From contig MCFE01000187.1 of assembly GCA_002104905.1 (NCBI GenBank), positions 1 to 64,000 of the forward strand: 64,000 nucleotides of DNA. The letters are read 5' to 3'. The translations under genes and the position numbers were made by a program. Position 1 is the first letter of the stretch. Each line of letters opens with the position of its first letter. The DNA comes from Basidiobolus meristosporus CBS 931.73. Taxonomy: Eukaryota > Basidiobolomycota > Basidiobolomycetes > Basidiobolales > Basidiobolaceae. The notes beneath the pieces were generated by a model. The model searched no databases. It worked only from the letters and a program-made list of their open reading frames with translations, and was not told where the DNA came from. Below, piece after piece: positions 3,001 to 64,000 of the stretch.

Positions 3001-3088
3001 TCAAGAACTAGTTACCCAGTTCCACCAACAATATCCTGCAAAACCTGCCCCAAAGGGAAACAGAGCTCCGCCTGGAAGAGGAGAATAG
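2..3088 (+). CDS. Gypsy Pol polyprotein: RT, RNase H, integrase, chromodomain (5' partial)
   Basis: This polyprotein copies the element RNA into DNA and integrates it into the host genome. The frame is already open at base 2, so the ATG at 20 is probably not the true start and gag-protease would lie upstream. Numbering from that ATG: RT at about 60-270 with the catalytic YLDD (YLDDILIYS); RNase H at about 365-485 ([10 protein letters not shown], then GKPDALSR); the integrase zinc-binding region at about 595-645 with His residues and CDICN; the integrase core with [16 protein letters not shown] and a DDE glutamate in [12 protein letters not shown]; and a chromodomain at about 950-1005 ([17 protein letters not shown]), which in this family directs insertion to marked chromatin. 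The stop at 3086-3088 abuts the LTR. No inactivating lesion is visible in the part present. Confidence 0.95.
3074..3085 (+). other. Polypurine tract of the gypsy element
   Basis: GGAAGAGGAGAA is an unbroken purine run overlapping the last codons of pol and ending three bases before the LTR. Plus-strand priming tracts of LTR retrotransposons sit exactly here. This placement supports the LTR start at 3089. Confidence 0.8.
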
Positions 3089-10950: not shown

Positions 10951-11008
10951 TTTGTGTTGTGCATTAATTTGCCGGTATTATCACTCTTTGGTCCTCGTCG
11001 TACTCCCA

Positions 11009-11016
11009 TATATAAG
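11009..11016 (+). promoter_or_regulatory. TATA box of NRPS1
   Basis: TATATAAG lies 54 nt upstream of the chosen ATG at 11063. The paralogous gene has TATAAAAG at 47880, 55 nt before its ATG, and both are followed by GCCAT. Conserved motif, spacing and start context (CAACAATGAACTC in both) support the promoter and the start. With a usual 30-nt TATA-to-start distance the 5' leader would be only about 25 nt. Confidence 0.7.
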
Positions 11017-11062
11017 CCATGGAAATAAAATTCCCGACCCCCAACTACAAGAAGTCTCAACA

Positions 11063-35900: not shown

Positions 35901-36247
35901 GGCGACAGATTTGGACTTCTGCCAATCAAAGCTCTGCCCGCGAGTATCTGACCATGATCTCTTCCTCAGGTGAATGGTCGTTGGACGAAGCCGCCTCCCA
36001 AATGATTTTAGAGAAGATCGAGGAGAACACTCAACTGATGAGGAAATACGAGCCTGTAGCCAAGCGGTTGGCCACCGATATCGTGTTGGTGAAAGGACTA
36101 GGCGCCAAGGGTACATTTGGCGAGCAGAAAACCTGCTACGGCTGGTCGGAACACTCGACCAACGTGGTTGTTCACAGCGTGGAGGCCGAACATCACGAGC
36201 TGATGTTTGAGCCGCATGTAGCCAGGATTGCCCAGTATCTCCAATAG
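11063..36247 (+). CDS. NRPS1: six-module non-ribosomal peptide synthetase with TE, two introns
   Basis: This megasynthetase assembles a peptide by activating amino acids (A), holding them on phosphopantetheine carriers (T), inverting some (E), condensing them (C) and releasing the product (TE). Exons are 11063-24016, 24083-28675 and 28754-36247, giving about 8346 residues in one frame. The order is partial C-A-T-E, C-A-T, C-A-T-E, C-A-T-E, C-A-T, C-A-T-E-TE. Every A domain has its SGSTG loop and A10 lysine, and every T domain has GGDS. The ATG at 11063 is preferred over the in-frame ATG at 10952 because NRPS2 aligns from there (CQFPHLL in both) and the TATA box lies between the two. Predicted stereochemistry is D-L-D-D-L-(D). 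The two internal 'starts' at 24107 and 28766 are GTG and TTG inside C domains, so three separate genes are unlikely. The product is unknown. Confidence 0.95.
11715..16700 (+). repeat. Long repeat A, copy 1 (shared with NRPS2 at 48596-53581)
   Basis: About 5 kb matching 48596-53581 at a constant offset of 36881 bp. By eye I count roughly two dozen substitutions and no indel. It starts near the end of the N-terminal partial C domain and stops inside A2, upstream of the SGSTG loop. Both limits are inside coding sequence, so this is not a whole-gene duplication. Confidence 0.9.
15060..18230 (+). other. NRPS1 module 2: C-A-T
   Basis: C2 (about 1333-1780) follows an E domain, so it should be a DCL type; its active motif is HHAINDG. 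A2 (about 1788-2300) has YTSGSTGTPKG and pocket residues read as DAFMLGAVMK, suggesting a hydrophobic residue (weak inference). Its A10 motif is TSEK rather than TSGK, keeping the lysine. T2 has GGDSILA. There is no E domain, so the residue stays L. Where the later C domains carry an intron, C2 has uninterrupted ACTGAGTATAGG. Confidence 0.9.
18340..22800 (+). other. NRPS1 module 3: C-A-T-E
   Basis: C3 (about 2427-2867) has IHHALYDGWS, as in C domains accepting an L donor, and follows a module without E. A3 (about 2877-3390) has pocket residues read as DAIMVGAVAK. T3 is LGGDSISAI. E3 (about 3490-3913) has HHLIVDLVSW, EGHGRE, RTVGWFTTLYP and FNYLGRF. The A-T-E part is copied almost exactly in module 4 except for the A core. 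Confidence 0.9.
19796..23023 (+). repeat. Tandem unit B, copy 1 (A3-T3-E3-start of C4)
   Basis: This matches 24434-27661 at a constant offset of 4638 bp. The flanks are almost identical, while about 500 bp in the middle (20190-20700) is clearly diverged without a length change. The right edge is sharp, at GGTGACTTC in the C domain. Confidence 0.9.
22915..27440 (+). other. NRPS1 module 4: C (split by intron 1)-A-T-E
   Basis: C4 has WHHAILDATSW, with alanine in place of the usual glycine of HHxxxDG, and its last part lies beyond intron 1. A4 (about 4399-4914 of the spliced protein) has the unusual FDPSVIE, with pocket residues read as DPIAVGAVAK. T4 and E4 are nearly identical to T3 and E3, except for a 36-bp patch in E4 (27254-27289) that loses a tryptophan present in the other E domains compared. 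Confidence 0.9.
24017..24082 (+). other. Intron 1 of NRPS1 (66 nt)
   Basis: Donor GTAAAC at 24017, branch-like TACTAAT at 24054-24060 and acceptor TAG at 24080-24082. That TAG is the stop codon that ends the first open frame. Splicing gives ACTGAG|TAT (Thr-Glu-Tyr) and stays in frame. The intronless C2 domain of the same gene has ACTGAGTAT at the same place, which fixes the junction. Removing it rejoins the two halves of C4. Confidence 0.9.
24434..27661 (+). repeat. Tandem unit B, copy 2 (A4-T4-E4-start of C5)
   Basis: Second copy of the A-T-E-C unit. The diverged island 24828-25338 lies between MMEHRG and GPQLARGYLNR and covers the pocket residues before the A10 lysine. The recognised amino acid can therefore differ (codes DAIMVGAVAK and DPIAVGAVAK) while the surrounding module is identical. 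Confidence 0.9.
27553..30800 (+). other. NRPS1 module 5: C (split by intron 2)-A-T
   Basis: C5 has WHHAILDATAW, again with DA instead of DG, and is completed after intron 2. A5 (about 5931-6441) has FTSGSTGTPKG and pocket residues read as DAFMMIGVLK, the same code as modules 2, 3 and 4 of NRPS2. T5 is LGGDSILAI. No E follows. Most of A5-T5-C6 is shared at DNA level with NRPS2 A3-T3-C4. Confidence 0.9.
28676..28753 (+). other. Intron 2 of NRPS1 (78 nt)
   Basis: Homology with C2 and C4 predicts ACAGAG|TAT, giving donor GTTGGA at 28676 and acceptor TAG at 28751-28753, with TACTAAT at 28715-28721. It sits at the same position in C5 as intron 1 in C4. The donor is weak. An alternative frame-preserving pair is GTAACT at 28695 with AG at 28762-28763 (69 nt), which would add three residues but fits the conserved TE-Y junction less well. 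Confidence 0.82.
29103..31479 (+). repeat. Long repeat C, copy 1 (A5-T5-C6 of NRPS1)
   Basis: This matches 56672-59048 at a constant offset of 27569 bp. Near identity is broken by two short diverged islands, around 30390-30470 (linker before A10) and 30785-30900 (T-C linker). The right edge is in the C domain at GCCATCAA. Confidence 0.88.
30910..35450 (+). other. NRPS1 module 6: C-A-T-E with atypical terminal E
   Basis: C6 (about 6568-7004) has IHHALYDGWS. A6 (about 7018-7528) has pocket residues read as DAIMVGAVAK, identical to A3, so positions 3 and 6 may be the same residue. T6 has LGGDSILAI. The last E domain is divergent: HHFIIDLMSW and RTVGWFT are kept, but EGHGRE reads ETHGRQ and FNYLGR reads LGYMPN. 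The presumed catalytic His, Glu and Tyr positions are retained, so activity is uncertain rather than excluded. Confidence 0.88.
35560..36244 (+). other. NRPS1 thioesterase domain
   Basis: The last 230 residues form an alpha/beta-hydrolase TE. The nucleophile serine is in HGYSFGG (Ser codon 35798-35800), the acid is the Asp in IIDT (35879-35881), and the His is in AEHHELM. It would release the peptide by hydrolysis or cyclization. A TE ending is typical of bacterial NRPSs. Many ascomycete cyclic-peptide NRPSs use a terminal C domain instead. Confidence 0.92.
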
Positions 36248-47887: not shown

Positions 47888-47934
47888 CCATACTCCCAAG
47901 TGTTTTTGTGCACCATCTACTGGAAGTCCCAACA

Positions 47935-50900
47935 ATGAACTCATTGAATACTAGCGTTTGCCAATTCCCACATTTGCTGGCTCGTGAGTCAGAGCAAATT
48001 GCTGCGATGGTTGAGTTTCATGCTAGTGAAATCATAGTCCTAGACTTGAGTTCGATCCACCAGTTTACTGCTTTCCAAGGGGCTGCTGACATTGAAGAGG
48101 CCTTGATAATCGCTACCTGGGTAATTATGCTGAACTCGTATACTGGAAGCTCAGACATTACCTTCGGGACAGGCTTTCCTCATCGAGAATCATCAGGGTT
48201 GTTTTTGAAGGATTTGCGAGTCTTCCAGTCAACTTATGATCAAGAAATCGAAAAACTGTATGTTTGGAGCTGGCTAAAGCATATAGCAAATACCCATATT
48301 CAGGGTGTCAGTTCCAAAGATACTGCCGCCTTCAGTATCCGAGATGCCCTCAATTTCAACACTTACATTATCTTCAATGAAAAAATAGGCTCAATAGATA
48401 TGAGCAATCTTAAGGTATTGTACTATTTACATGAAAGATGCGTTATTATAAATGCTGAAGTTCTCCACTTTGATAAGCAATTTGCCATCTGCATAGAAGG
48501 GTACTTGTGTAAGAGTAGCATGACTATTCGTATGATTTTCGCAAACAGCTATCTCCAACAAGACCACGGGGTGTTACTTGTCGATCAATTTACTCATATT
48601 GCTAAAACACTGCTTAACAATCTTGATGCACCCTTGAATACTCTCAATTGGACTCCTGAAAACGAAAAACACTTATTCTTGACTGAATGGCAGCAAGGCA
48701 AGCCGAATTATGTTCAAGTACTTGATGATAGTTGCATCCATCATCTGATTGAGGAGCAAGTCAAGAGGACACCAAATAGTATCGCCCTTCAATTTGAGGA
48801 CAAAGAATTGGTCACATACTCAGAGTTGAACAAACGGGCCAATAAGCTTGCTCATACGCTGATCCAGATTGGTGTACAACCCGACAACGTGGTACCAGTA
48901 TGCATCGAGAAATCCATCCATATGGTGGTTGCTATCCTGGCGGTCCTTAAGGCCGGGGCTGCCTATGTGCCCCTCGATCCTGAATACCCAAAAGATCGGA
49001 TTCATTTCATCATACGAGATACAAATGCTAGTGTTTGTATCACCACAAGCAATTTGCAGAGGATGTTTGCTGAGGGACAAACCCTTCGATCGCTGACGGT
49101 GGATGAGTTCGATTTCTGTGGTGACGAGCGGTCCGAGTTGAACCCCGTCATCCCTGGGTTGAAGTCCTCAAATCTTTGCTACCTAATCTTCACCTCAGGC
49201 TCCACCGGAAAGCCCAAAGGTGTTATGCTAGAACACCGTTGCGTCGTCAATTACGTAGCTGCTCACCAGAAGATTCTGGATTTGTCCCAGGATGACCGGT
49301 TCCTCCAGTTCGCCAACTACACCTTTGATGCGTCCATACTTGATCTGTTCGTGAATCTGACCACTGGATCCCGTCTATGCTTGGCATCGAAGAACAATTT
49401 GCTCACAGATCTCCCCGGAATGATGAACCTGATGAAGGTTACTGCAGCACAGCTGACCACAACCGTGGCTTCCCTGGTGGATCCGAGCTCCGTGCCTACG
49501 CTCAAGCTACTTCAGCAAGGAGGTGAGATGCTCACCAAATCCGTAAGGGATGCTTGGGCCAGCAAAGTCAAGTTGCATAATGGCTACGGCCCGACCGAAA
49601 CCGCAGTCTACACCATCATCAAGCAGTCATTGAAGCCATCGACCTCCTGTGCCAATATCGGGTGGCCCATTGGCCGCAGCAAAGTTCTCATCCTGAATGA
49701 TAGGTTGGAGCTGATCCCATTGGGGGCAGTGGGTGAGCTTTGCATTGGTGGACCACAGCTTGCTCGAGGATATCTCAATCGACCTGATCTGACGGAAAAG
49801 AGCTTCGTCAGCTCCCCATTCAATCATGGCGAACGACTGTACAGAACAGGGGATCTGGGAAGATTCAACCCCGATGGCTCGATCACCATCCTTGGGCGGA
49901 AGGATAATCAAGTCAAGTTGAACGGGCTGAGAATAGAAATAGAGGAAATAGAGCATGTATTGAACCAATCCCCAGAGGTTAGCCGCGTATCGGTCAGACT
50001 GTTGAATCGGAAGTCGAAGACATCCAAGGTGAGTAAAGTGCTGGTGGCTTTTGTAACTTTCGTCAACAAAATGTCCGATGAAGAGTCAGTATCTGTTCTT
50101 GAGTTGACAAGCTGCCCAGAAGTGGGTCAAGTACAAGAGTCTGTTCGAAAACAGCTTCCACCATATATGGTGCCTACAGTGTGGGTGCCGTTGACAAAAA
50201 TGCCCATCAATACTAGCGGAAAGACCGACTTGAAGACTTTGGAACTCTTGTACACAAGCCTCGAAACTGCTCAAGACGTCAAAGAGGCCAAAGACATGCC
50301 CACCTCCGCGATGGAAGTGCTACTGCAAGAGGCTTGGGGTGAGGTGTTGAATGTTGAAAAGTCTTCCATCGGCACTGGTGACTCCTTCTATCATTTGGGG
50401 GGCGACTCGATCTCCGCCATCCAAATATCCGCCCAATGCCGTCAAAATGGGGTGGAGGTGTCTGTCCAGAGCATATTGCAACACCCCACCATCCGTCAGC
50501 TGGCAAACTATGCTCGGTTCACGACATTGGCGCTAGAGAAGCAGAGCATAGAGGAGGATGAGGAGGAGGATTGGAGTGACATTCCGTTCACCCCAATCCA
50601 GCACCAGTTCTTTGGTGTCACCCAGCCTGAAGTCAATCACTTCCATTTGTCGTGGTTGGTGAGTGTCAGGCATCCAATCGAGCTACCTGCACTGAGAGGT
50701 GCGCTATTTGAGCTGATTGGCCATCACGATATGCTCAGGACTCGTTTCACCCAAGAACTAGGTCGCTGGAGACAATGGCTGGCTTCCAATGAACAGACTA
50801 ATTTCGAGGTGCAGCGGCATCGAGTCTCTGGTGTTGAAGAGCTGAAGTCGAGTGTACTGAAAACACAACGAAGCCTCAACGTTGAGACCGGGCCAGTATC

Positions 50901-51836
50901 ATCGTTTGTGATCTACGATCTACCATCCGGTGAGCAGCTGCTATTCATGACCATCCATCATTACATCATTGATCTTGTTTCGTGGCGTATCTTTTGGGAG
51001 GATCTGGAAAAGCTGCTGAGCGGACAGTCCTTGTCATACAAAACACTGTCATTCAGAAAGTGGAGCAAGCTGCTACAAAAGCACGCAGAGTCCTTGACGA
51101 GTGAGGACTGGCCGCAACAAGCGCTAATCGAGCCGTTGGATATTGATATGTCCAAGCTTTCTCTGAATACCATGGAAACGGTAGAAACATTATCGTTCAC
51201 GCTGGATAGTGAGTACACTGCCCTCATGTTCGGTAGAAGCAATGATGCTTACGGGACGGAGGCCGTTGACTTCATGCTTGCCACTCTCGCCACCTCATAC
51301 TGTGATGTGTTCCAGACCGATTCGATTACCTTTGCAACGGAAGGTCACGGACGTGAGCCATGGGATGACTCCATCGATGTGTCCCGGACAATTGGATGGT
51401 TTACCTCCATTTATCCAGTCACCATCCAGCGCAAGCGTGGGGATTCTCTGATTGACGTACTGAAGCAGACTAAAGATACCCGTCGAGCAATTCCTAACCA
51501 CGGATTGGACTATGGACTTCTTCGCTATCTAAACTCGGAGCTATCCTCTAGATATAGTAGCGATCGCTTCCAGGTTGGCTTCAATTATTTTGGACGCTTC
51601 CAGCATCTGGAGAAGGGTCGCTCTCTGTTCCAGCAAGCTGCGGAGCAGTACACGTTCGATTTGAATATGATTGGTCCCAAGTGGAGAAGAATGAATGCTA
51701 TCGAGGTTGAGGTCACCGTACAACGTGACAATCTGAGTGCCTCGATATCTTACAGCAACCAGCTACATCATGAGAAGCAGATCAGCCAATGGCTGCAGGC
51801 ATGGAAGAGGGACTTGATGGAGGCAGTCCAGATTAG
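47935..51836 (+). other. NRPS2 module 1: partial C-A-T-E
   Basis: Residues 1-222 are a partial C domain related to, but clearly diverged from, that of NRPS1. From about 48596 the DNA becomes nearly identical. A1 has the same pocket residues (DALQQGGVYK), followed by T1 (LGGDSIS) and E1 (HHYIIDLVSW, EGHGRE). First residue and its D configuration should match NRPS1. Confidence 0.9.
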
Positions 51837-54800
51837 TGGCAACAAGAAGAAGAGAGAACTGACCGTCTCAGACATCCCGTTGCTCTGCCTCAATGCTCAT
51901 CAATTGCACGGACTGTTGGAAGAGGTTGCTGCAAAATGTGGCGAAGAGTTTGTGCAAAACATAGAGGACATGTATCCCTGTTGCGCAATGCAGGAGGGCC
52001 TGATCGTCGGGAATGCCCGCTCAGCCTCATCGTATCATGTTCAAGATGTGTACACTCTGCCGGATGGAGTGGACGAGGAACAACTTCTCTCAGCCTGGAG
52101 ATCCACAGTCAATGATCTACCCATACTGCGCACCGTGTTTATCGAGAATTCTTACTCCTCACCCACGTTAGGAGCATATCTCCAAGTCGTTCTGCGACAT
52201 GTTGATGTCGATTTCCAGCGCATATATCCAGAGAGTCAGGATATCGAAGATGCTGCACTGAACAAATATCTGGAAGCTGATGTAGCCAAAGGATTTCCGC
52301 TTGGCCGGCCCAACATACGATTATGCTTGATACAGGGTGAGAAGAATCGGATGATTATCAGTCGTCATCATGCTATCAATGATGGTTGGTCGGACAAAAT
52401 CACCATGGCCTACTTGGAAGCCGTCTTTAACAGTACTTCAAGGCCAGCAGTGATCCCATACAAGGAGTATATCTCCTATTGCGTTAAGCAGAATGGCTCA
52501 TTGAGCAACGAAGAGGGTGCTGAGTACTGGTCAACCTATCTAGCCGGTATTGATGCCAGCATCTTTCCTAAGCTTGGTGAGACAAATGCCCGTGCTGGTC
52601 ATCACCAAGTTGTGTTCAGATCACAAATTCCCATGCAGGTGCTGAAGGACTTTTCGAAGAAGGCCGGTGTAACCACGCTTACCTTATTACAGGCAGCTTG
52701 GGGAATGATATTGCAGCCCTACTATGGAAAGGAGGACTTCGTGTATGGCGTGCTCACGAATGGCCGCAATATTTCCATGAAGCAGATCAATCACGTAGTT
52801 GGTCCGTGCATCAACACCACCCCATTAAGGATTCAGTGTCATCCAAGCACCAAGATCATGGATTGGCTAAGATCACTGCATCAAAGCATGGTGGCCCGGA
52901 TTCCATACGAGCATTGTGGTCTAAGACTGATCAAGCAATGGTGCAAACAGAGGAATTCCCAGGTCGGTTTTGATGCTATTCTCAACTTTCAGTTGTCCGA
53001 GAAAGATGATGCAAGGCAAAAGGTGACCTTCGAAATGGAGAGAATAATCGAGCCCACTGAGTATAGGCTTTGTCTTAACGCATGGAAAGAAGGGGATAAG
53101 CTCGCCTTCAGGTTGGACTTTGACAATGCTACACTGACCAGCCACCTGGCCAATCATTTACTAGATCGCTTGGACGCTGTGATTGGTGCCATTGCTGTTG
53201 CTGATGGTGAATCTACCGTTGCTGACATTCCATATATGTCAAATGTGGAAAGCAGCTTGATCCAGTCATTCGCTACTGGTTGCAATCAAGTCGATCCCAC
53301 GTTGGAATGTTTGCACCACTTATTTGAAAAGCAGGTGGCAAAGACACCCAACAACATTGCCATCCGTTATGAGAGTGATCAGCTTCTTACCTACAATGAC
53401 CTTAACAAGCAATCGAATCGGTTGGCCCACTACCTGGTTAGTCAAGGAGTTGGACCAGAGTCAATTGTGATGTTGTGTCTGGACAAATCGGTAGAAATGA
53501 TAGTGGCTATGCTGGGAGTGCTCAAAGCTGGAGGCGCGTACGTACCAATAGACCCAGCAAGTCCTGTTGAGAGATCGAGATTTGTACAGAGGGAAACAAA
53601 GGCATCGATTGTAATAACTAAAAGCTTGCTCAAGGAGAAATTCGAAGACATCGCTCTGGTGTTAATTGACAGCGAAATAAGTGTATTCAGTACCTATCCA
53701 TTTGATAATCTACGCAGCAGGGAAGTCACCGAAAAAAATCTATGCTATATATTGTACACCTCAGGGTCGACGGGAACACCGAAGGGTGTGATGCTGGAGC
53801 ATTCTTCCGTGGTCAGTTTCATTCATTCAATCCACCAAAGGTATCAACTTACCGCTGAAGACTCGATTCTGCAGTTTGCCAACTACACCTTCGACGCATC
53901 TGTATTTGAAATCTATGCACCGCTGGCTATTGGCGCGTCTGTGGTCATGGCACGCAAGGATTATCTGCTTACGAATCTAGAGGATTGGGTCAACAGACTG
54001 AGGGCAACATTTTTGATGCTGACCCCCACCATTGCAACCATGGTCGACCCACTCAAGGTGCCTTCGGTGAAGCACCTGATGTTCATTGGTGAGATGCTGA
54101 CAACCACCGCGCGCAACATCTGGTCACCTCATGTTGAGATCAGTAATGGCTATGGCCCGACTGAATCCACTGTTCTCATGACAGTCAACACTCGGATGGA
54201 TTCAGCCACATCGTGCTCGAATGTCGGACTACCCGTTGGTAACAACAGAATATACATTCTTGGTGCTGACCGCCAACCGGTGCCACTTGGAGTGGTTGGT
54301 GAACTCTGTGTAGCTGGTCCTCAATTAGCTCGGGGCTATCTTAATAGACCTGATCTCACTGGGAAGGCATTTGTCCCTGGTCCATTTGTGTCTGAGGAGC
54401 GCCTGTACTGTAGTGGAGATCTTGCTCGATTCAATGCGGATGGATCAGTGGAGCTGATTGGGAGAATAGACAATCAGGTCAAGATTCACGGATTGCGGAT
54501 TGAATTAGATGAGATAGAGCATGCCCTTCACGAATACCCCAGAGTGGCCAGAGCATGTGTAATTCCACTGGTCACTGATGCGGAGACGAATCATAAATCA
54601 TTGACTGTCTTTATTACATTCCATGATCTAATTGACTCTAGTCTCGCATTATGTACACCTGGGGGAAATAACAGTGTATTACTTGCTTCCTATGCCAAGG
54701 AGGCCAGATCGCTTATCAGGAAGAAACTACCCTCCTATATGATTCCTAACATCTGGGTGCCACTCAATAATATGCCCTTCACGGCTAGTGAGAAGATTGA

Positions 54801-57800
54801 TCGAAAAATGCTGGTATCTCTTTTTGCCACTTTTTCCAAAGACGATTTGATGCTTTTGAGTATTTCTGATGACGTTAGTCACGTTGGGCCTAGAACAGTA
54901 GTGGAGCAGAATTGGACGAAACTCTGGTCATCGGTGCTCAATATTCCTGCCAATGCTATAGGTGTTCATGATTCGTTCGTTAATCTTGGAGGTGACTCTA
55001 TTTTGGCCATCAGATTGGTGGGGGCTGCTCATAAGGCTGGATATGCCTTAACCGTACAGGATCTATATACTTATCCAACCATAGCTGAGATTGCCGAGAC
55101 TAGTGTGCTTGTTGATTCGGATATATTGGCAGCCAAGACCATTGCGCGGTATTCACTTCTCAACCTTGATCCAGCTCAACTTGAATACCTGCTTGAGTGT
55201 GACTTACGCCCAAATGGCATAAACTATGATGACGTGGAAGACATGTATCCATGTTCACCTATGCAAGAAGCGCTGATGGCCCTGAGTATAAAAGACCAAT
55301 CCAGCTATCTCACTCGGCAAGTTTACAGATGTGGACCTAATGTGGACATCGAACGACTTCGTGCTTCCTGGCAAACCGTTATCGAGGCCAATCCTATTCT
55401 ACGAACAGTCATTATTTTCAGTACCTCTGGTATTACGCATCTCAATGGTATACAAGTTGTACTTCGTGGTGAAGGTATGGAGTGGAATGTCCATGAGTAT
55501 GAAGATAATGCCTCTCTGGAAAGCAGTCTACCTCAAGCTTTAGCTGAAGACAAATCAAGAGGAATTCGCCTTGGTCAGCCCCTGATCCGGTTCAGTCTAC
55601 TGAAGTCCAAGGAAACTACTACATACCTCATATGGACTATTCACCATGCACTGTATGATGGTTGGTCCATGAATCATATAATAACTGATGTTATTACAGC
55701 ATACCAGGGCCACGACCTGTCGGTCAGACCATCTTACAGTGAATATATCAAATACCTCATGAATCAAGACAAGAACGAATCTCTTTGGTTCTGGAAAAAT
55801 ACACTTGATTCCACCACTGAGACTTACTTAGTGAGAGGTATACCTACTCCTGGAGCGACATCACTGCCCTCCAGGGTTAGTGAAAAGCTTCAGGTTGATT
55901 TCTCATCCATAACCAGCGTTCATAATATTACAGCAGCCAGCATTGCTTACTTGGCCTGGGCACTTGTGCTAAAGGTCCATACTGGTAGTTCTGATGTGGT
56001 ATTTGGAGTGGTGAACTCCGGAAGAAGTATTCCCCTTCATAACATTCAAGATATTTGTGGACCGTGCATCACGACGTTACCAATCCGTGTTACTTTCTCG
56101 GATAACGTGTCGCTTTTGGAAATACTACAGTCGATCCATGGTACGCAGATACAGCAATACCGCTACCAATCCATCAGCCTGCAGGAAATTCTCGAGCATT
56201 GCCACCACGTGGGAGAAAAAGCCCTTTTTGATTCCCTTTTGGTAGTTCAAAACATCCCTCAGAAAAGTGAGGATGAAGGATTGGCTACAATCGGACTCCA
56301 TAAATCAATAGCCTCAATGCCAATTGACTATCCAATTGTTATGGAAATCAATATTACTGGAACCATCCACAGTGTTGATCTCACTTATGACGAGCAAGCG
56401 GTGACTACGTTTGAAGCAACTTGGATAATGAAGCACTTCGTGGAAGCTATCAAAGTGATTCTACATAATCTTAACAGCACAGTGAAAAGTGTTCGCCTAT
56501 TGACATGGGAGGAAACTTCAATAATGCAGAATTGGAATCTGATTGAACAAATACAAAACAAGTTGTGTTGTATCCATGAGTTATTCGAGCAGCAAGCACT
56601 CCTCCATCCAGATAATTGGGCTCTTCAATTTGAAGATGAGGTTTCCGTAAGCTATTCAGATTTGAATCGAAGAGCTAACCAGCTGGCTCATCATTTGATC
56701 AAGCTTGGTGTCCGTCCAGAGTCAATGGTGCCCTTGTGCCTTGACAAATCTGTCGAAATGGTAGTGGCAATGCTTGCTGTTCTCAAGGCTGGTGGTGCTT
56801 ATGTTCCCCTTGACCCGAACAATCCAGTCGAGCGCAACAGATTCATCCTTGCCGAGACAAATGCACAGGTTGTAGTGACACTGGATGTGTACAGATCCAC
56901 TTTCGACACAGCGACTGTGGTGCTCCTTGACTCCGACCTGGATCGTATTCGCACAAATCCCGAGGATAATCCCGAGGTCACTGGCTTGAGTAGCTCGAAC
57001 CTTTGCTACGTTCTGTTCACCTCTGGCTCAACCGGAACACCGAAGGGAGTGATGCTAGAGCACGCCGCGGTGGTTAGCTTCATTCACGCAATCCAACAAG
57101 AGTACGACTTCAGCCCCAAAGACTCGATACTGCAGTTCGCCAACTACACCTTCGATGCTTCGGTGTTCGAGATATACGTTCCCCTTGCCATTGGAGCTTC
57201 CGTAGCTATGGCACGAAAGGACTACCTACTCACGGATCTTGAGGAATGCATCAGGGAGCTGAGAGCAACATTTTTGATGCTGACCCCTACAATTGCTACC
57301 CTGATTGACCCACTTGAGGTCCCATCGGTACGGAACCTGATGTTCATAGGGGAGATGCTGACAACCACTGCACTGAACAAGTGGTCGCCGTATGTCGACC
57401 TGAGCAACGGTTACGGGCCGACTGAGTCGGCAGTCCTGACGACTGTCAACACGCATATGAGCTCGACTACCTCATGCTCGAATGTAGGCAAGCCAATCGG
57501 AAACAATAGGCTCTATGTTCTCGGTGACGACAACTACCCTGTTCCGTTCGGAGTGGTGGGTGAGCTTTGTGTTGCTGGATCCCAGCTCGCTCGGGGCTAT
57601 CTGAACAGACCTGATCTGACGGATAGCGCGTTCATCACAAGCCCGTTCGTGTCGGCAGAACGTCTGTATAAGACTGGGGACCTTGCTCGATTCAATAGTG
57701 ACGGATCGGTGGAGCTGGTTGGGAGAAAAGATAACCAGATCAAGATTCATGGGCTGAGAATCGAGTTGGATGAAATCGAGCATGCTCTCCATCAGCACTC

Positions 57801-60800
57801 CAAAGTCGCCAGAGCGTGTATTGTTCCTTTGGTCACTGACAAAGCCACTGATCACAAATCACTGGTTGCCTTTGTGACTTTCAACGACCTCACTGACAGC
57901 AACTCACCGGTTGGTCTGATCGAGGAAAGTAACGACCAGAAGGTTGTAGAGTACTTCAAGGAGATCAAGTCGCTTGTCCGAAATAAGCTGCCTACTTACA
58001 TGATGCCCAGTACATGGGTTCCTGTGAGTAGAATGCCTACCACAACGAGTCAGAAGACGGATCGAAAGAGTCTAGCTGCACTGTATGCATCCGTGGATAA
58101 GGAGGATTTGATGAAGTGGAATCATTCTGACGCCTCTGGCCACGTTGGAGCAAGAACAACAATGGAGGAGAGCTGGGCGGAGCTCTGGTCGGCGGTTCTC
58201 AAGATCTCTCCAGATACGATTGGATCGCACGACTCTTTCTTCAGTCTCGGAGGTGACTCTATCCTAGCCATCAGGCTGGTGGGTGCTGCTCATAAGGCTG
58301 GGTTCACGCTGACAGTCCAGGATCTATATTTACATCCTACTATTGCCGAACTGGCATCCACCTGTCTCCCTCTGGGGCCAGAGATCATGGACACTAGACC
58401 TGTGGAGAAGTATTCCTTGCTCAACCTTGATCTTGAGCAGCTTGGCTATTTGATGGAGCACGAACTGCCCCAGCATGACATTATGCCTGACGATGTCGTT
58501 GACATCTACCCCTGCTCTCCGATGCAAGAAGCGCTTGTGGCTCTGAGCCTACAAGACAGCTCGAGCTATGTCAGCCAGCTTGTGTACAAGTGTGAAGGCA
58601 ACGTGGACCTGGAGCGACTTCGCGCCGCCTGGCACTCGGTGATTGAAGCAAACCCCATTCTTCGAACAGCGATCTTGTTCACCACTAGTGGCTTTGCTCA
58701 TCTGAATGGCCTACAGGTTGTTCTTCGTAGCAAGAGCATAGAGTGGGACGTTCAGGAGTATGAGGATGCCACCTCGCTTGAAAACAGCTTGGCTCGAGCT
58801 TTGGAAGCTGACAGGTCTAAAGGAGTATCTGTGGGGCAACCACTGACTCGGTTCGCTTTGCTGAAGACCGCAGGCCCGAATGCATACCTCGTATGGACCA
58901 TTCATCATGCCTTGTACGATGGCTGGTCCATGAATCACATCGTGTCGGATGTAGTGGCTGCCTATCAAGGTCATGATTTGCCGGCCAGACCACCGTACAG
59001 CATGTACATCAACTACCTGTTAGACACGGACAAGAGTCAAGCCATCAAATACTGGCAAGAAACCCTTGGCTCGGCAACCCCTACTCATTTGGCCCGTAGT
59101 TCTCCCACTGCAGCGGAGACTCAGTTGCCGTCGACAATTGTGGAGAATATCCAGGCGGATTTCAGGTCACTTGCAAGCGAGCATAACCTGACGGTAGCCA
59201 CCATTGCGTATTTAGCGTGGGCCCTAGTGCTGAAGTGTCACACTGGTAACCCAGATGTAGTGTTTGGTGTGGTGGATTCCGGAAGAAGCGTTCCTCTCCA
59301 GCATGTCCAAGATATATGTGGGCCCTGTATCACGACATTGCCCATGCGCATCAATCTATCGGATACTCAATCCCTTTTGGATGCTCTAAAATTGATTCAG
59401 AGTTCCCTGACACATCAAAAACTATACCAGTCAATTGGTTTGCAAGATATCCTCAAGCAGATTGGTATGGCGGCTGAAAGCTCGCTGTTTGATACACTCT
59501 TGGTAGTTCAAAACATCAACTTAGATAATGATGCCACAGACTTGACTTCCATTGGGCTGCAACAGTCAGCAACTTCGATGCCAATTGATTACCCTGCCCT
59601 AATTGAAATCAGTTTGAAAGGGTCCAATCTGCAGGCGAGTCTCACTTACCAAACCCAAATATTTACGGAATTTGAAGCAACATGGATTGCCAAGCACTTT
59701 GTTGAGGCGATGAGGTTGATACTACGTGATAGCAGCGCATTGGTTAAAGATGTAAGCATTAGGACTGAGGAGGAGATAATATCAATCAAAAGATGGAGTA
59801 CGGCTGGCTCTGTCAAGAATAGTTCCGAATTTATTCACGAGTTGATTGAGCAGCAAGCCTTACTTCGCCCGGAACAGGTTGCAATTCAATTTGAAGAGAC
59901 TGAATATGTTACTTATGGCGAACTCAACTGCAGAGCTAACCAGCTGGCTCATCATTTGATCAAGCTTGGTGTCCGTCCAGAGTCAATGGTGCCCTTATGC
60001 CTTGACAAATCTGTCGAAATGGTAGTGGCAATGCTTGCTGTTCTCAAGGCTGGTGGTGCTTATGTTCCCCTTGATCCGAACAATCCGGTCGAGCGCAACA
60101 AGTATATACTCAACGAGATTAGTGCTCAGATTGTGCTGACTAGTGACCAGCATAAGTCGGCTTTTGAAAAGCAAGTCCTGGTACTGGTTGACAGAGATGA
60201 GCAAATGATTGGACATTACCTTACGAGTAACCCTGAAATTAATGGACTGAGTAGCTCGAGCCTTTGCTATGTACTCTTCACTTCAGGGTCTACCGGTATG
60301 CCGAAGGGAGTCGTGCTAGAGCATTCTTCCGTGGTCAGTTTCATTCATTCAATCCACCAAAGGTATCAACTTACCGCTGAAGACTCGATTCTGCAGTTTG
60401 CCAACTACACCTTCGACGCATCTGTATTTGAAATCTATGCACCGCTGGCTATTGGCGCGTCTGTGGTCATGGCACGCAAGGATTATCTGCTTACGAATCT
60501 AGAGGATTGGGTCAACAGACTGAGGGCAACATTTTTGATGCTGACCCCCACCATTGCAACCATGGTCGACCCACTCAAGGTGCCTTCGGTGAAGCACCTG
60601 ATGTTCATTGGTGAGATGCTGACAACCACCGCGCGCAACATCTGGTCACCTCATGTTGAGATCAGTAATGGCTATGGCCCGACTGAATCCACTGTTCTCA
60701 TGACAGTCAACACTCGGATGGATTCAGCCACATCGTGCTCGAATGTCGGACTACCCGTTGGTAACAACAGAATATACATTCTTGGTGCTGACCGCCAACC

Positions 60801-63800
60801 GGTGCCACTTGGAGTGGTTGGTGAACTCTGTGTAGCTGGTCCTCAATTAGCTCGGGGCTATCTTAATAGACCTGATCTCACTGGGAAGGCATTTGTCCCT
60901 GGTCCATTTGTGTCTGAGGAGCGCCTGTACTGTAGTGGAGATCTTGCTCGATTCAATGCGGATGGATCAGTGGAGCTGATTGGGAGAATAGACAATCAGG
61001 TCAAGATTCATGGATTGCGGGTTGAACTCGATGAGATAGAACACGTACTCAACCAACATGCACAAGTGGCTAGAGCATGTGTCATACCGTTGGTGACAGA
61101 TCCCAACACAAATCGTAAATCGATTGTAGCATTCTTAACATTCTGTGGAATGGAGGGTTCCCTTGCCGATCTTTCATTACTCACTAATCCTGAACTATCA
61201 TTCGTTCGGCCATTTTTGGAAGAAGTGAAAGAAATAGCCAGACGACAGCTACCATCCTATATGGTGCCAAATCTTTGGTTGCCTCTTAATGCTATTCCAA
61301 TCAACACCAGTGACAAAACAGATCGTCGTAAACTAGAAGGCCTCTTCAAGTCTTTCAATCTGGAGGAAATCGTAAATGGATCAAACAATGAAAGCCATCA
61401 TGAGAGTCAACAGATAACGCCCTTGGAGAAACAAATCCAAAAAATATGGTCTGATACTTTAAATATACCTGTTTCCAGCATCAGTATTGAAGATACATTC
61501 TATCAATTGGGAGGAGATTCCATTTCAGCCATTCGGGTGTCGTCATTGAGTCGTCAAAATGGTCTGTCCCTCTCAGTGAAGCAAATAATGCAGAATCCAA
61601 CCATTCGCTCACTTGCCTCAGTGGCTGCTGCGTTGGATCCATCCAAGATCATCAGCCTGCCTAGCACTAGTGGTGATCTGATTCTTACCCCAATTCAGAG
61701 ACGCTTCCTGTATACTCCTCAGGAAAATATGAATCACTTCAACCAGTCATGGCTACTGAAGCTGCGTGATACCACAACGAAGGACAGGCTATCGCAAGCC
61801 GTTAATGCTCTGATGAGCCATCATGATCTGCTTCGCAGCCGCCTTTCCTGCACAGACGGGGCTTGGAAGATGAGGATTGTATCCGCAGAGGAAGCGCCCT
61901 TCCAGGTTCATCAGATGCAAGTGAGGTCGATTGACGACATGAAGGGTCACATTCATCAGCTGCAACGTAGCCTCGACCTGATGTCAGGGCCTATGTTTCA
62001 GTTTGCACTCTACGAGCTGGAGGATAGATCACAGCTGCTATTCATGACCGTTCACCATTTGATAGTGGATCTGGTTTCGTGGCGTATCATATGGGAAGAT
62101 TTGGAACAGCTGCTTCAAGGGAAGCAGTGCGGCTACAAGTCGATGAGCTTTATGCAGTGGAGCGCTATGCTCAACGAGTATGCCCAAGAGCTTGGCATGG
62201 ACATGTGGCCGTCTCAGGAGATTTCCGAGCCGATAGTGAGAGATGCAGCTCTCCTGGATGCGAACAGAATGAGCTCAAGCAAGTCTCTTGCTTTCACCCT
62301 TTCGGTCGGCCAAACAGAGCTGCTCTTTGGAAAGTGCAACCTTCCATTTCAGACTGAGGCGACGGATCTCATGATCTCCTCACTGGCTATTGCTTACTGC
62401 AAGGTGTTCAATGCTGGTAGCATGACCATCGGCATGGAAGGGCACGGAAGGGAGACCTGGCGTGATGGAATCGATGTGTCGAGGACTGTTGGCTGGTTCA
62501 CCACACTCTATCCACTGGTGGTGGAGATTTCTGAAGATTTGGATCAACTGAGTGTTCTGAAGCGAGTCAAGGACCAGCGTAAGCTTATGCCGGGCAACGG
62601 GCTTGTGTATGGATTACTACGGTACATGAGCAACAATCCGGAGAATCGATTCAAGGATGATGTGATCCAGATAGGGTTCAACTATTTAGGTCGTTTTCAG
62701 CAGCTAGAGAGCAAGAACGCATTTTTTCAGCCTGTTGACGCCACTTACGATTTTGATCAGCTTCATATCGGCAATGAGTGGAGAAGAGATCATGTCTTCG
62801 ATGTCACTATAACTGTTGAGCATGATTGTCTTAAGGCTGAGATTGTGTTCAATACCAGTTTGCACACTGAAGAAATAGTATCAGAATGGCTCTTCAAATG
62901 GGATGAGGCATTAGGCAACATGATTGAATCTTGTGCTCAGATCGATACTATCGAGCATACCCGAAGCGACTTTTCATTAGTTAAATTTAACGAAGCAGAG
63001 TTCAATCTTTTCTATACTCAAACTCTCCCAGGCGTGGGTGTTGATCCTAAATTCGTTGAAGATATTCTTCCATGCACCCCACTGCAAGAAGGCCTCATTG
63101 CTGGTATGTTCAAGAATGCCAACTACTACCATATCCAGCAGCAGCTTGATCTTGTTGGTGAATTCGACCCGATCAAATTCCAAAGCACTTGGGAAACCAT
63201 GATTCGGGATCACCCAATTCTGCGCACTATCTTTGTCGAATCGACGATTAGTGGCACGCATAATAATTTCTTACAGCTCGTGATGAAATACCGCAAGCCT
63301 TGCTGGTCATACAAGAAATGTGCTCACAACTCCCTGGAAAAGACTGTAGCCACGCTATTAGCAGAAGACAAGTCCTTTACCTTCGATTTGGGCCTGCCAA
63401 CGATGAGGTTTACACTGCTGGAGACTGATCAGAACTATCGGATGCTATTCCTTAGCTGGCATCATGCTATACTCGATGCAACAGCATGGGATCTTATCTT
63501 ACAAGACTACTACAATGTTTATAATAGCCAATCTCGTGTGGCAACATATCCATTTGCCAAATTTGTTGAAGATCTTTATAGTAAATCAGAAGTGGATATT
63601 GCCAAAGAGAAATCCTATTGGCAAGGAAAATTCTCTCAGGCCAGTCGGTCTCCATTCCCTACTCTTGGAGCACCCGAGGACCCAGCTCCCGAAATGAGAC
63701 GTGTTGAAGGCAGAATTCATATACCTATGGAGAAGATAGCTCATTACGCTCAACAACTAAGAATCACTACATTAACGCTGGTCAAAGCTGCTTGGGCCAG

Positions 63801-64000
63801 TATTTTGCGAGAATACACTCAAAATGACGATGTGATATTCGGATATGTCGTCCATGGAAGAAGTGGAGACTTGGAGGGGATTTCAACCATTGTTGGTCCG
63901 TGTATTAACACCCTACCGTGCCGCATCATCTGTAACCACCGATCAACTATTGCAGAGTGGCTAATGCAAATTCATGTGGATTACACATCAGCCCTGTCAT
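47935..64000 (+). CDS. NRPS2: multimodular non-ribosomal peptide synthetase, 3' partial
   Basis: Paralogue of NRPS1 in the same orientation, with at least 5355 codons and no stop before the window edge. Reading frame 1 is kept from the ATG to the last codons, which read CINTLPCRI...AEWLMQIH. The order is partial C-A-T-E, C-A-T, C-A-T, C-A-T-E, C (cut). All complete A domains have SGSTG and an A10 lysine, all T domains have GGDS, and both E domains have HHxxxDLVSW, EGHGRE and RTxGWFT. Predicted product start is D-L-L-D. A2, A3 and A4 share one pocket code (DAFMMIGVLK), so three neighbouring residues may be the same. The edge falls before the place where NRPS1 C4 and C5 carry introns, so splicing further on is likely. 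Release domain and total length are unknown. Confidence 0.95.
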   Translation, partial: MNSLNTSVCQFPHLLARESEQIAAMVEFHASEIIVLDLSSIHQFTAFQGAADIEEALIIATWVIMLNSYTGSSDITFGTGFPHRESSGLFLKDLRVFQSTYDQEIEKLYVWSWLKHIANTHIQGVSSKDTAAFSIRDALNFNTYIIFNEKIGSIDMSNLKVLYYLHERCVIINAEVLHFDKQFAICIEGYLCKSSMTIRMIFANSYLQQDHGVLLVDQFTHIAKTLLNNLDAPLNTLNWTPENEKHLFLTEWQQGKPNYVQVLDDSCIHHLIEEQVKRTPNSIALQFEDKELVTYSELNKRANKLAHTLIQIGVQPDNVVPVCIEKSIHMVVAILAVLKAGAAYVPLDPEYPKDRIHFIIRDTNASVCITTSNLQRMFAEGQTLRSLTVDEFDFCGDERSELNPVIPGLKSSNLCYLIFTSGSTGKPKGVMLEHRCVVNYVAAHQKILDLSQDDRFLQFANYTFDASILDLFVNLTTGSRLCLASKNNLLTDLPGMMNLMKVTAAQLTTTVASLVDPSSVPTLKLLQQGGEMLTKSVRDAWASKVKLHNGYGPTETAVYTIIKQSLKPSTSCANIGWPIGRSKVLILNDRLELIPLGAVGELCIGGPQLARGYLNRPDLTEKSFVSSPFNHGERLYRTGDLGRFNPDGSITILGRKDNQVKLNGLRIEIEEIEHVLNQSPEVSRVSVRLLNRKSKTSKVSKVLVAFVTFVNKMSDEESVSVLELTSCPEVGQVQESVRKQLPPYMVPTVWVPLTKMPINTSGKTDLKTLELLYTSLETAQDVKEAKDMPTSAMEVLLQEAWGEVLNVEKSSIGTGDSFYHLGGDSISAIQISAQCRQNGVEVSVQSILQHPTIRQLANYARFTTLALEKQSIEEDEEEDWSDIPFTPIQHQFFGVTQPEVNHFHLSWLVSVRHPIELPALRGALFELIGHHDMLRTRFTQELGRWRQWLASNEQTNFEVQRHRVSGVEELKSSVLKTQRSLNVETGPVSSFVIYDLPSGEQLLFMTIHHYIIDLVSWRIFWEDLEKLLSGQSLSYKTLSFRKWSKLLQKHAESLTSEDWPQQALIEPLDIDMSKLSLNTMETVETLSFTLDSEYTALMFGRSNDAYGTEAVDFMLATLATSYCDVFQTDSITFATEGHGREPWDDSIDVSRTIGWFTSIYPVTIQRKRGDSLIDVLKQTKDTRRAIPNHGLDYGLLRYLNSELSSRYSSDRFQVGFNYFGRFQHLEKGRSLFQQAAEQYTFDLNMIGPKWRRMNAIEVEVTVQRDNLSASISYSNQLHHEKQISQWLQAWKRDLMEAVQISGNKKKRELTVSDIPLLCLNAHQLHGLLEEVAAKCGEEFVQNIEDMYPCCAMQEGLIVGNARSASSYHVQDVYTLPDGVDEEQLLSAWRSTVNDLPILRTVFIENSYSSPTLGAYLQVVLRHVDVDFQRIYPESQDIEDAALNKYLEADVAKGFPLGRPNIRLCLIQGEKNRMIISRHHAINDGWSDKITMAYLEAVFNSTSRPAVIPYKEYISYCVKQNGSLSNEEGAEYWSTYLAGIDASIFPKLGETNARAGHHQVVFRSQIPMQVLKDFSKKAGVTTLTLLQAAWGMILQPYYGKEDFVYGVLTNGRNISMKQINHVVGPCINTTPLRIQCHPSTKIMDWLRSLHQSMVARIPYEHCGLRLIKQWCKQRNSQVGFDAILNFQLSEKDDARQKVTFEMERIIEPTEYRLCLNAWKEGDKLAFRLDFDNATLTSHLANHLLDRLDAVIGAIAVADGESTVADIPYMSNVESSLIQSFATGCNQVDPTLECLHHLFEKQVAKTPNNIAIRYESDQLLTYNDLNKQSNRLAHYLVSQGVGPESIVMLCLDKSVEMIVAMLGVLKAGGAYVPIDPASPVERSRFVQRETKASIVITKSLLKEKFEDIALVLIDSEISVFSTYPFDNLRSREVTEKNLCYILYTSGSTGTPKGVMLEHSSVVSFIHSIHQRYQLTAEDSILQFANYTFDASVFEIYAPLAIGASVVMARKDYLLTNLEDWVNRLRATFLMLTPTIATMVDPLKVPSVKHLMFIGEMLTTTARNIWSPHVEISNGYGPTESTVLMTVNTRMDSATSCSNVGLPVGNNRIYILGADRQPVPLGVVGELCVAGPQLARGYLNRPDLTGKAFVPGPFVSEERLYCSGDLARFNADGSVELIGRIDNQVKIHGLRIELDEIEHALHEYPRVARACVIPLVTDAETNHKSLTVFITFHDLIDSSLALCTPGGNNSVLLASYAKEARSLIRKKLPSYMIPNIWVPLNNMPFTASEKIDRKMLVSLFATFSKDDLMLLSISDDVSHVGPRTVVEQNWTKLWSSVLNIPANAIGVHDSFVNLGGDSILAIRLVGAAHKAGYALTVQDLYTYPTIAEIAETSVLVDSDILAAKTIARYSLLNLDPAQLEYLLECDLRPNGINYDDVEDMYPCSPMQEALMALSIKDQSSYLTRQVYRCGPNVDIERLRASWQTVIEANPILRTVIIFSTSGITHLNGIQVVLRGEGMEWNVHEYEDNASLESSLPQALAEDKSRGIRLGQPLIRFSLLKSKETTTYLIWTIHHALYDGWSMNHIITDVITAYQGHDLSVRPSYSEYIKYLMNQDKNESLWFWKNTLDSTTETYLVRGIPTPGATSLPSRVSEKLQVDFSSITSVHNITAASIAYLAWALVLKVHTGSSDVVFGVVNSGRSIPLHNIQDICGPCITTLPIRVTFSDNVSLLEILQSIHGTQIQQYRYQSISLQEILEHCHHVGEKALFDSLLVVQNIPQKSEDEGLATIGLHKSIASMPIDYPIVMEINITGTIHSVDLTYDEQAVTTFEATWIMKHFVEAIKVILHNLNSTVKSVRLLTWEETSIMQNWNLIEQIQNKLCCIHELFEQQALLHPDNWALQFEDEVSVSYSDLNRRANQLAHHLIKLGVRPESMVPLCLDKSVEMVVAMLAVLKAGGAYVPLDPNNPVERNRFILAETNAQVVVTLDVYRSTFDTATVVLLDSDLDRIRTNPEDNPEVTGLSSSNLCYVLFTSGSTGTPKGVMLEHAAVVSFIHAIQQEYDFSPKDSILQFANYTFDASVFEIYVPLAIGASVAMARKDYLLTDLEECIRELRATFLMLTPTIATLIDPLEVPSVRNLMFIGEMLTTTALNKWSPYVDLSNGYGPTESAVLTTVNTHMSSTTSCSNVGKPIGNNRLYVLGDDNYPVPFGVVGELCVAGSQLARGYLNRPDLTDSAFITSPFVSAERLYKTGDLARFNSDGSVELVGRKDNQIKIHGLRIELDEIEHALHQHSKVARACIVPLVTDKATDHKSLVAFVTFNDLTDSNSPVGLIEESNDQKVVEYFKEIKSLVRNKLPTYMMPSTWVPVSRMPTTTSQKTDRKSLAALYASVDKEDLMKWNHSDASGHVGARTTMEESWAELWSAVLKISPDTIGSHDSFFSLGGDSILAIRLVGAAHKAGFTLTVQDLYLHPTIAELASTCLPLGPEIMDTRPVEKYSLLNLDLEQLGYLMEHELPQHDIMPDDVVDIYPCSPMQEALVALSLQDSSSYVSQLVYKCEGNVDLERLRAAWHSVIEANPILRTAILFTTSGFAHLNGLQVVLRSKSIEWDVQEYEDATSLENSLARALEADRSKGVSVGQPLTRFALLKTAGPNAYLVWTIHHALYDGWSMNHIVSDVVAAYQGHDLPARPPYSMYINYLLDTDKSQAIKYWQETLGSATPTHLARSSPTAAETQLPSTIVENIQADFRSLASEHNLTVATIAYLAWALVLKCHTGNPDVVFGVVDSGRSVPLQHVQDICGPCITTLPMRINLSDTQSLLDALKLIQSSLTHQKLYQSIGLQDILKQIGMAAESSLFDTLLVVQNINLDNDATDLTSIGLQQSATSMPIDYPALIEISLKGSNLQASLTYQTQIFTEFEATWIAKHFVEAMRLILRDSSALVKDVSIRTEEEIISIKRWSTAGSVKNSSEFIHELIEQQALLRPEQVAIQFEETEYVTYGELNCRANQLAHHLIKLGVRPESMVPLCLDKSVEMVVAMLAVLKAGGAYVPLDPNNPVERNKYILNEISAQIVLTSDQHKSAFEKQVLVLVDRDEQMIGHYLTSNPEINGLSSSSLCYVLFTSGSTGMPKGVVLEHSSVVSFIHSIHQRYQLTAEDSILQFANYTFDASVFEIYAPLAIGASVVMARKDYLLTNLEDWVNRLRATFLMLTPTIATMVDPLKVPSVKHLMFIGEMLTTTARNIWSPHVEISNGYGPTESTVLMTVNTRMDSATSCSNVGLPVGNNRIYILGADRQPVPLGVVGELCVAGPQLARGYLNRPDLTGKAFVPGPFVSEERLYCSGDLARFNADGSVELIGRIDNQVKIHGLRVELDEIEHVLNQHAQVARACVIPLVTDPNTNRKSIVAFLTFCGMEGSLADLSLLTNPELSFVRPFLEEVKEIARRQLPSYMVPNLWLPLNAIPINTSDKTDRRKLEGLFKSFNLEEIVNGSNNESHHESQQITPLEKQIQKIWSDTLNIPVSSISIEDTFYQLGGDSISAIRVSSLSRQNGLSLSVKQIMQNPTIRSLASVAAALDPSKIISLPSTSGDLILTPIQRRFLYTPQENMNHFNQSWLLKLRDTTTKDRLSQAVNALMSHHDLLRSRLSCTDGAWKMRIVSAEEAPFQVHQMQVRSIDDMKGHIHQLQRSLDLMSGPMFQFALYELEDRSQLLFMTVHHLIVDLVSWRIIWEDLEQLLQGKQCGYKSMSFMQWSAMLNEYAQELGMDMWPSQEISEPIVRDAALLDANRMSSSKSLAFTLSVGQTELLFGKCNLPFQTEATDLMISSLAIAYCKVFNAGSMTIGMEGHGRETWRDGIDVSRTVGWFTTLYPLVVEISEDLDQLSVLKRVKDQRKLMPGNGLVYGLLRYMSNNPENRFKDDVIQIGFNYLGRFQQLESKNAFFQPVDATYDFDQLHIGNEWRRDHVFDVTITVEHDCLKAEIVFNTSLHTEEIVSEWLFKWDEALGNMIESCAQIDTIEHTRSDFSLVKFNEAEFNLFYTQTLPGVGVDPKFVEDILPCTPLQEGLIAGMFKNANYYHIQQQLDLVGEFDPIKFQSTWETMIRDHPILRTIFVESTISGTHNNFLQLVMKYRKPCWSYKKCAHNSLEKTVATLLAEDKSFTFDLGLPTMRFTLLETDQNYRMLFLSWHHAILDATAWDLILQDYYNVYNSQSRVATYPFAKFVEDLYSKSEVDIAKEKSYWQGKFSQASRSPFPTLGAPEDPAPEMRRVEGRIHIPMEKIAHYAQQLRITTLTLVKAAWASILREYTQNDDVIFGYVVHGRSGDLEGISTIVGPCINTLPCRIICNHRSTIAEWLMQIHVDYTSALS
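48596..53581 (+). repeat. Long repeat A, copy 2 (in NRPS2)
   Basis: Counterpart of 11715-16700. Upstream of it the two genes are clearly diverged within the same domain, and downstream they diverge again within A2. The near identity is therefore confined to module 1, C2 and the start of A2, consistent with recent gene conversion or unequal exchange. Confidence 0.9.
51941..55110 (+). other. NRPS2 module 2: C-A-T with chimeric A domain
   Basis: C2 has HHAINDG. The start of A2 is nearly identical to NRPS1 A2 up to 53581, and then the sequence leaves it. The core from 53797 to 54488 is instead identical to NRPS2 A4. Pocket residues read DAFMMIGVLK. T2 is LGGDSILAI. No E follows. Confidence 0.9.
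53797..54488 (+). repeat. Identical A-core block D, copy 1 (NRPS2 A2)
   Basis: 692 bp read line by line as identical to 60319-61010 (offset 6522), with diverged sequence on both sides. It starts just after the SGSTG loop (GAGCATTC) and ends after the LGRIDNQVKIH-type motif, so it spans the pocket residues apart from the A10 lysine. Confidence 0.93.
55230..58370 (+). other. NRPS2 module 3: C-A-T
   Basis: C3 has IHHALYDGWS (L-donor type), consistent with the lack of E upstream. A3 has FTSGSTGTPKG, pocket DAFMMIGVLK, and DNA nearly identical to NRPS1 A5. T3 has LGGDSILAI. No E follows. Confidence 0.9.
56672..59048 (+). repeat. Long repeat C, copy 2 (A3-T3-C4 of NRPS2)
   Basis: Counterpart of 29103-31479. 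The same A domain is used at module 5 in NRPS1 and at module 3 in NRPS2, so block exchange is not tied to position in the assembly line. Confidence 0.88.
58480..62940 (+). other. NRPS2 module 4: C-A-T-E
   Basis: C4 has IHHALYDGWS. A4 is a mosaic: its first part resembles A3 of the same gene, its core is identical to A2, and its end (A10 motif NTSDKTD) resembles NRPS1 A3/A4. T4 is LGGDSISAI. E4 has HHLIVDLVSW, EGHGRE, RTVGWFTTLYP and FNYLGRF. Confidence 0.9.
60319..61010 (+). repeat. Identical A-core block D, copy 2 (NRPS2 A4)
   Basis: Second copy of the 692-bp block. Silent positions are also identical, so the copy is recent. It gives modules 2 and 4 the same predicted substrate. Confidence 0.93.
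63055..64000 (+). other. NRPS2 module 5: start of C domain
   Basis: Follows E4, so it should be a DCL domain. Its active motif is WHHAILDATAW, the DA variant seen in NRPS1 C4 and C5. The window ends about 200 bp before the position homologous to NRPS1 intron 1. Confidence 0.88.

Follow-up and report, generated by a model that had tools for sequence, protein, structure and literature searches.

An identical 692-base adenylation core in two modules of a Basidiobolus peptide synthetase gene, and related tracts among its paralogues

We analysed a window of 64,000 bases from Basidiobolus meristosporus CBS 931.73 (positions 1 to 64,000 of MCFE01000187.1, here called C410, a contig of 137,613 bases in a genome of 89.0 Mb and 1311 contigs). 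Contig C410 carries two tandem paralogous nonribosomal peptide synthetases (NRPS), NRPS1 with six adenylation (A) domains (1a to 1f) and NRPS2 with seven (2a to 2g). NRPS2 contains one 692-base block twice, in the A domain of module 2 (2b; 53797..54488, + strand) and in that of module 4 (2d; 60319..61010, +). Judged from the sequence comparisons below, the block is very probably a recent intragenic gene conversion tract, or the product of a double crossover, between these modules. It is real, recent and well bounded: the copies are identical, their borders are sharp, their flanks are discordant and both lie in a single frame.

The identical core and its diverged flanks

The two copies agree at 692 of 692 positions at an offset of 6522, and the adjoining base differs at each end; the exact copy described in an earlier note on this DNA was thus recovered, with no extension to either side. 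Among 147 exact matches of at least 40 bases within and between C410:1-77000 and C435:1-32000, the block ranks third in length; contig C435 carries a third paralogue, NRPS3, with six A domains (3a to 3f). Both copies fall in one open frame (contig 47851-64203) that holds the first large open reading frame (ORF) of NRPS2 (47908..63999, +, continuing to contig 64203, with later exons to about 76386 beyond the window). AMP-binding (PF00501) was matched in two stretches within 47908-55500 (Pfam, E 1.4e-161), and motifs A3, A5, A7 and A8 are present in both 2b (query stretch 53338..54900, +) and 2d (59869..61377, +, as matched by 2b), with the frame open.

We give positions relative to the first base of the A3 motif (53740 in 2b, 60262 in 2d), so that the block spans +57..+748. 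Its left border is the first base of the Glu codon that follows PKGVxL of A3, just after the ATP-binding loop, where the earlier note had placed it. Its right border is the second base of the His codon that follows GRIDNQVKI of A8 (GRIDNQVK of 2b, in the right border zone: 54460..54483, +, +720..+743). The note had also held that only the substrate pocket was transferred, which does not stand: the block runs past the G-motif (NVGLPV of 2b, 54220..54237, +, +480..+497) to +748 in A8. The gramicidin synthetases are the nearest relatives with a solved structure and, taking the limits of the match to 1amu, the block corresponds to about GrsA residues 203 to 433-436. It holds nine of the ten specificity-code positions; the tenth, Lys517, lies outside, by the placement given in PMC3640908 and PMC2174460.

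Outside the block, similarity falls abruptly. Aligned identity between 2b and 2d is 41% in the condensation (C) domain and linker, 55% in the N-terminal flank of the A domain, 100% in the block, 55% directly after it and 40% further downstream, in line with the diverged flanks that the note had reported. At four-fold degenerate third positions, the modules differ at 0 of 69 sites in the pocket and 0 of 25 in A5-A8, compared with 20 of 28 in A1-A3 and 17 of 22 in the C-terminal A subdomain (A-sub). Because the silent sites inside the block are identical, protein conservation does not explain it, and selection alone was rejected as the cause on the same ground.

In a GENECONV-like column permutation over the 171 pairs of 19 modules (columns -450..+1100), 2b-2d was the top pair, with a score of 203.1 where the permuted data reached at most 17.2 (0 of 2000 permutations). 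Protein trees of 44 domains rejected a 2b+2d clade by the approximately unbiased (AU) test for the N-terminal part (p-AU 1.2e-55) and for A-sub (p-AU 5.7e-4), whereas the cores are identical. These were 'quick' trees built with three domains of contig C421 set aside (stops occur in the stretch of two), and the N-terminal stretch includes segments of 2b and 2d that are themselves converted from other modules. The C-A linker and A-sub are distinct in the two modules on both sides of the block, and because of these differing flanks a tandem duplication that produced modules 2 and 4 in full was rejected. With discordant flanks, AU rejection on either side and one shared frame, the earlier proposal that part of an A domain was transplanted naturally within one gene is supported.

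Such an exchange would have had its end points in the conserved stretches of A3 and A8 and would have replaced a large A-core subdomain with its nine specificity positions, leaving the recipient its native C-A junction, C-terminal A subdomain and carrier side. The predicted consequences concern the peptide. The code DAFMMIGVL is found in NRPS2 modules 2, 3, 4 and 6, DALQQGGVY in module 1 and DAMVMGGVA in modules 5 and 7; 1e and 3e also have DAFMMIGVL, and the counterparts 1b and 3b have DAFMLGAVM. Module 4 is therefore predicted to share its present substrate with module 2, and one residue is predicted at peptide positions 2, 3, 4 and 6. A match of residues 2 and 4, which the earlier note had proposed to check, agrees with the shared code, but the predicted match extends to positions 3 and 6. 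By motif order, an epimerisation domain probably follows module 4 and none follows module 2, in which case one core would work both with and without such a domain downstream.

Ancestry of the core and probable direction of transfer

To trace ancestry along 2b, we used diagnostic sites at which b-type modules (1b, 3b) differ from e-type modules (1e, 3e, 2f). The b:e counts in 2b are 40:7 in -161..+56, 23:46 in +57..+480, 19:6 in +481..+748 and 41:16 in +749..+1100, with Fisher p values for the successive shifts of 2e-8, 3e-4 and 0.79. The second shift lies near +492/+495, within the G-motif, and a few e-type sites still occur after it. The first ~430 bases of the block are thus e-leaning (53797..54232 in 2b, +, boundary approximate) and the remainder is b-leaning. 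We suggest that 2b probably acquired an e-like pocket, from A3 to the G-motif, at an earlier time, which would explain why its code is shared with 1e, 2c, 2f and 3e but differs from that of 1b and 3b, its counterparts. The history may then have had two steps, with the e-like pocket entering 2b first and the whole A3-A8 core being copied between 2b and 2d later.

To ask which module was the donor, flank and core distances were calibrated on 127 of the 171 pairs, those that are free of tracts and exclude 2b and 2d. The right flank of 2d lies much further from the b-types 1b and 3b than its core would predict (z -4.5 and -5.0), whereas that of 2b is normal (z -0.9). Discordance of the right edge in 2d, and concordance in 2b, favours transfer from 2b to 2d. 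To the left of the block, 2b also has e-type sites at +35 and +54 (two sites only), as though the block were an excerpt of a longer e-like segment of 2b. We infer 2b to 2d as the moderately more probable direction.

Several observations weigh against this account. Only the end state is visible, from assembled sequence, and the shared substrate of modules 2 and 4 is a prediction from the code only. At the left border, the step in b:e counts occurs in 2b (40:7 to 23:46) and is missing from 2d (11:30 to 23:46, Fisher p 0.53); taken alone, this would point to transfer from 2d to 2b. Discordance with the core is seen in the left flank of each module, with z +2.6 and -3.2 to -3.7 in 2b and z -2.0 to -3.5 in 2d. 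The strongest competitor, albeit an unlikely one, is a different history in which the core passed from 2d to 2b, or in which a third module, now lost, supplied it to both. It would account for the left-edge step in 2b, and the nearest other modules are only 73-74% identical to the block in DNA, placing the origin of the core outside the 19 modules compared. It fits poorly with the right edge and with the kinship of 2b, for which 1b and 3b are the nearest relatives on both sides (N-terminal part and A-sub). B. ranarum did not polarise the transfer: core identity of its A domains is at most 63% among the best 120 proteins listed per search. The listing of A domains from Basidiobolus proteins skipped domains less than 160 residues from the protein start (one of the seven of P0001), and the comparison was made without P0081_3, P0124_1 and P0128_1.

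Both modules also carry patches in other places. In 2b, the sequence up to -158 is near-identical to that of 1b. In 2d, the C-domain side is near-identical to 2g up to -870 (58462..59392, +; 4 mismatches in 931, the stretch examined starting at 58462), a patch resembles 1e (59923..60100, +; 5 mismatches in 178) with overlapping stretches that match 2c (169 bases, 3 mismatches) and 2f (146 bases, 2 mismatches), and the carrier region and onward is near-identical to 2e from +1230 (61492..62714, +; exact over 61510-61923 and 61925-62714; 2 mismatches in 670 examined). These patches raise the possibility that the block is the remnant of a larger module duplication, overwritten on both sides by later conversions. 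We regard this as improbable: the 2d patches are separated from one another by diverged sequence, and the block is separated from them by sequence unlike that of the compared modules (best matches in 60-nucleotide windows mostly 54-78%). Moreover, 0 differences in 692 bases would make all of the later events even more recent.

That one copy was written over the other by an assembly or consensus error is less probable still. The identity does rest on assembled sequence and not on raw reads, but the genome was sequenced by PacBio, and the gene that corresponds to NRPS2, 351909, passes a read-depth check with z -0.120, a whole-gene figure (PMC7466969). In addition, there is no N in contig 1-91000, the frame is intact, and other tracts in the family contain mismatches, so that homogenisation is no all-or-none artefact. 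Independent conservation or convergence on one pocket, to which the shared code of 2c, 2f, 1e and 3e might point, is already refuted by the lack of silent differences within the block; those modules are, moreover, only 73-74% identical to it in DNA. Recent conversion between modules 2 and 4 is the reading that we carry forward, and on this reading the block is one of many cases in which pieces of A domains were shuffled among these paralogues.

Tracts and pocket islands among 31 modules

The block is not isolated. A two-state tract model with parameters chosen by the analyst gave 42 near-identical tracts, the block included, in 29 of 465 pairs of 31 modules (contigs C410, C435, C421, C474 and C525). 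A genome search gave 81 matches at E <=1e-40, some of which are fragments of a single domain, and most other synthetases of the genome therefore lie outside the survey. We located 68 tract edges, of which 13 lie in -410..-310 (around A1), 8 in +10..+75 (A3), 10 in +478..+510 (G-motif), 4 in +511..+600 and 9 in +740..+770 (A8), and only 1 of the 68 falls within the 407-base pocket zone +73..+479. The counts are descriptive, as the zones were named after the edges were seen and pairs that share modules are not independent; apparent edges also cling to conserved motifs, which are alike anyway. The G-motif pattern was not found in 5 of 27 domains scanned.

In NRPS1 modules 3 and 4, the layout is the reverse of that seen with the block: 1c and 1d are almost identical over -317..+64 (2 mismatches in 382) and again from +594 onward (6 in 1306), and between these stretches lies a diverged pocket island (1c, 20185..20713, +; 1d, 24823..25351, +). 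The pockets are 70% alike, and four-fold sites differ at 21 of 44 positions there as against 0 of 52, 0 of 21 and 0 of 49 around them. The code of 1c is that of 1f; the code of 1d differs.

Contig C474 has four modules in which A1-A3 is 96-99% and A5-A8 97-99% identical. Their pockets are only 54-58% identical in five of the six pairs (88% in the sixth, 77212/81869), and in those five the islands extend from between +19 and +43 to between +483 and +493. The modules of this contig lie on the minus strand with A3 anchors at 77212, 81869, 85142, 88418 and 93063, and their codes are all different (DAMFLGIVS, DAMFHGIVA, DAIIMGGVA, DVIMMGNTV and DVSSMAAVI). Such islands would arise either when pockets were swapped in or when the scaffold was homogenised and conversion halted at a diverged pocket; both routes are recombination, and the sequence does not separate them. 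One-sided versions are present on C525, where (named by A3 anchors) 10252 and 13513 are near-identical up to +72 and 13513 and 16774 from +501. On C421, two modules (A3 anchors 3230 and 6494) are near-identical, and the sequence translated around their A domains is interrupted by stops, which may reflect introns or decay.

We tentatively suggest that these Basidiobolus synthetases may behave, in a fungal nuclear genome, as a system of pocket cassettes: conversion would homogenise the scaffolds, each pocket between A3 and the G-motif would be either left untouched or exchanged whole, and A8 would provide a second, wider exit. If so, the most recent event of a continuing process would be the 692-base tract, and the map of breakpoints would offer guidance from nature on cut sites in A domains. 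Where to cut and join A domains is an open practical question, and no cut point separates all coevolving sectors (PMC10212144); one fungal genome offers many natural joins with edges at base level. The significance is limited to one genome, to pairs that are not independent and to evidence from sequence. The wider pattern in this fungus, with pockets that act as units while the scaffolds around them are homogenised, deserves the most attention, and relatives of Basidiobolus provide a setting for testing direction, rate and function.

Known exchanges and genomic setting

A natural transplant of the A3-A8 core is of a kind described until now mainly from bacteria and is notable here as fungal; with it, exchange below the level of the A domain extends to an early-diverging fungus. 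In microcystin biosynthesis, A-domain replacement between mcyB1 and mcyC, with A3-A8 breakpoints in one cyanobacterial strain (PMC2174460), is like the block an intra-A-domain exchange between modules of one pathway over the A3-A8 span (PMC2174460, PMC8097286). That case is bacterial and tied to product variants, whereas the present one is fungal, has both modules in one protein and is read from sequence. For [D-Leu1] microcystin, gene conversion in McyA2 left tracts of 1029 and 707 bases that hold the binding pocket, similar in size to our block; a known product was changed there, and in NRPS2 the change is predicted only (PMC3640908). In the wollamide and desotamide synthetases of Streptomyces, a piece of an A domain also moved from one locus to another within a genome and the C-A interface was kept, but that piece includes the P-loop and the block begins just after it (PMC9205934).

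The left border lies near that of engineered A-subdomain swaps (Kries, Crusemann, Thong; PMC8616955, PMC10212144, PMC8097286, PMC11355689), and to this extent the borders are close to those used by engineers, as the earlier note had suggested. The right border departs from them: the engineered cut is at the G-motif (PMC10212144), coinciding with edges of other family tracts (+480..+504), and the block continues for ~250 bases past it to A8 (+748). The engineered borders fit the C474 islands better than they fit the block. A-core swaps that retain the C-A linker and A-sub are widespread in bacteria, with natural units mostly longer than the pocket-only units of engineers (PMC8097286), and the block is such a longer natural unit. 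Fungal NRPS recombination and module duplication likewise give modules mosaic ancestry (PMC2644324, PMC2823734, PMC4517408, PMC6367777), but the cases in the portions cited concern modules or whole A domains, with no breakpoints mapped inside the A domain. We found no literature that maps breakpoints inside fungal A domains, a weak negative given that most subscription journals were outside the search.

The top protein match is K493DRAFT_351909 of the same strain. Its public model maps to NRPS2 (contig 48799-76374) with both copies of the block in its exons, several of which are separated by GT..AG gaps. The model omits coding stretches of NRPS2 that lie within one open frame, such as 52797-53635 and 54558-56185, and looks incomplete (an observation recorded at contig 63894-76374). 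This gene is among candidates for bacterial transfer, to which others have largely attributed these Basidiobolus synthetases, and such candidates sit among fungal genes (PMC7466969). That the contig is a bacterial contaminant was ruled out by those fungal neighbours, by the GT..AG gaps and by ORFs of retrotransposon type, which we label Ty3-type. One of these ORFs, at 2-3088, encodes a reverse transcriptase, RNase H, integrase and chromodomain, and a second reverse-transcriptase ORF lies at contig 89316-90347; the two flank the synthetase pair on both sides. Between them, NRPS1 occupies three ORFs (10952..36247, +; six A domains), and its stretch 11927-16701 is near-identical to 48808-53582 of NRPS2 (modules 1 to 2), with an exact match of 1162 bases inside, at an offset of 36881.

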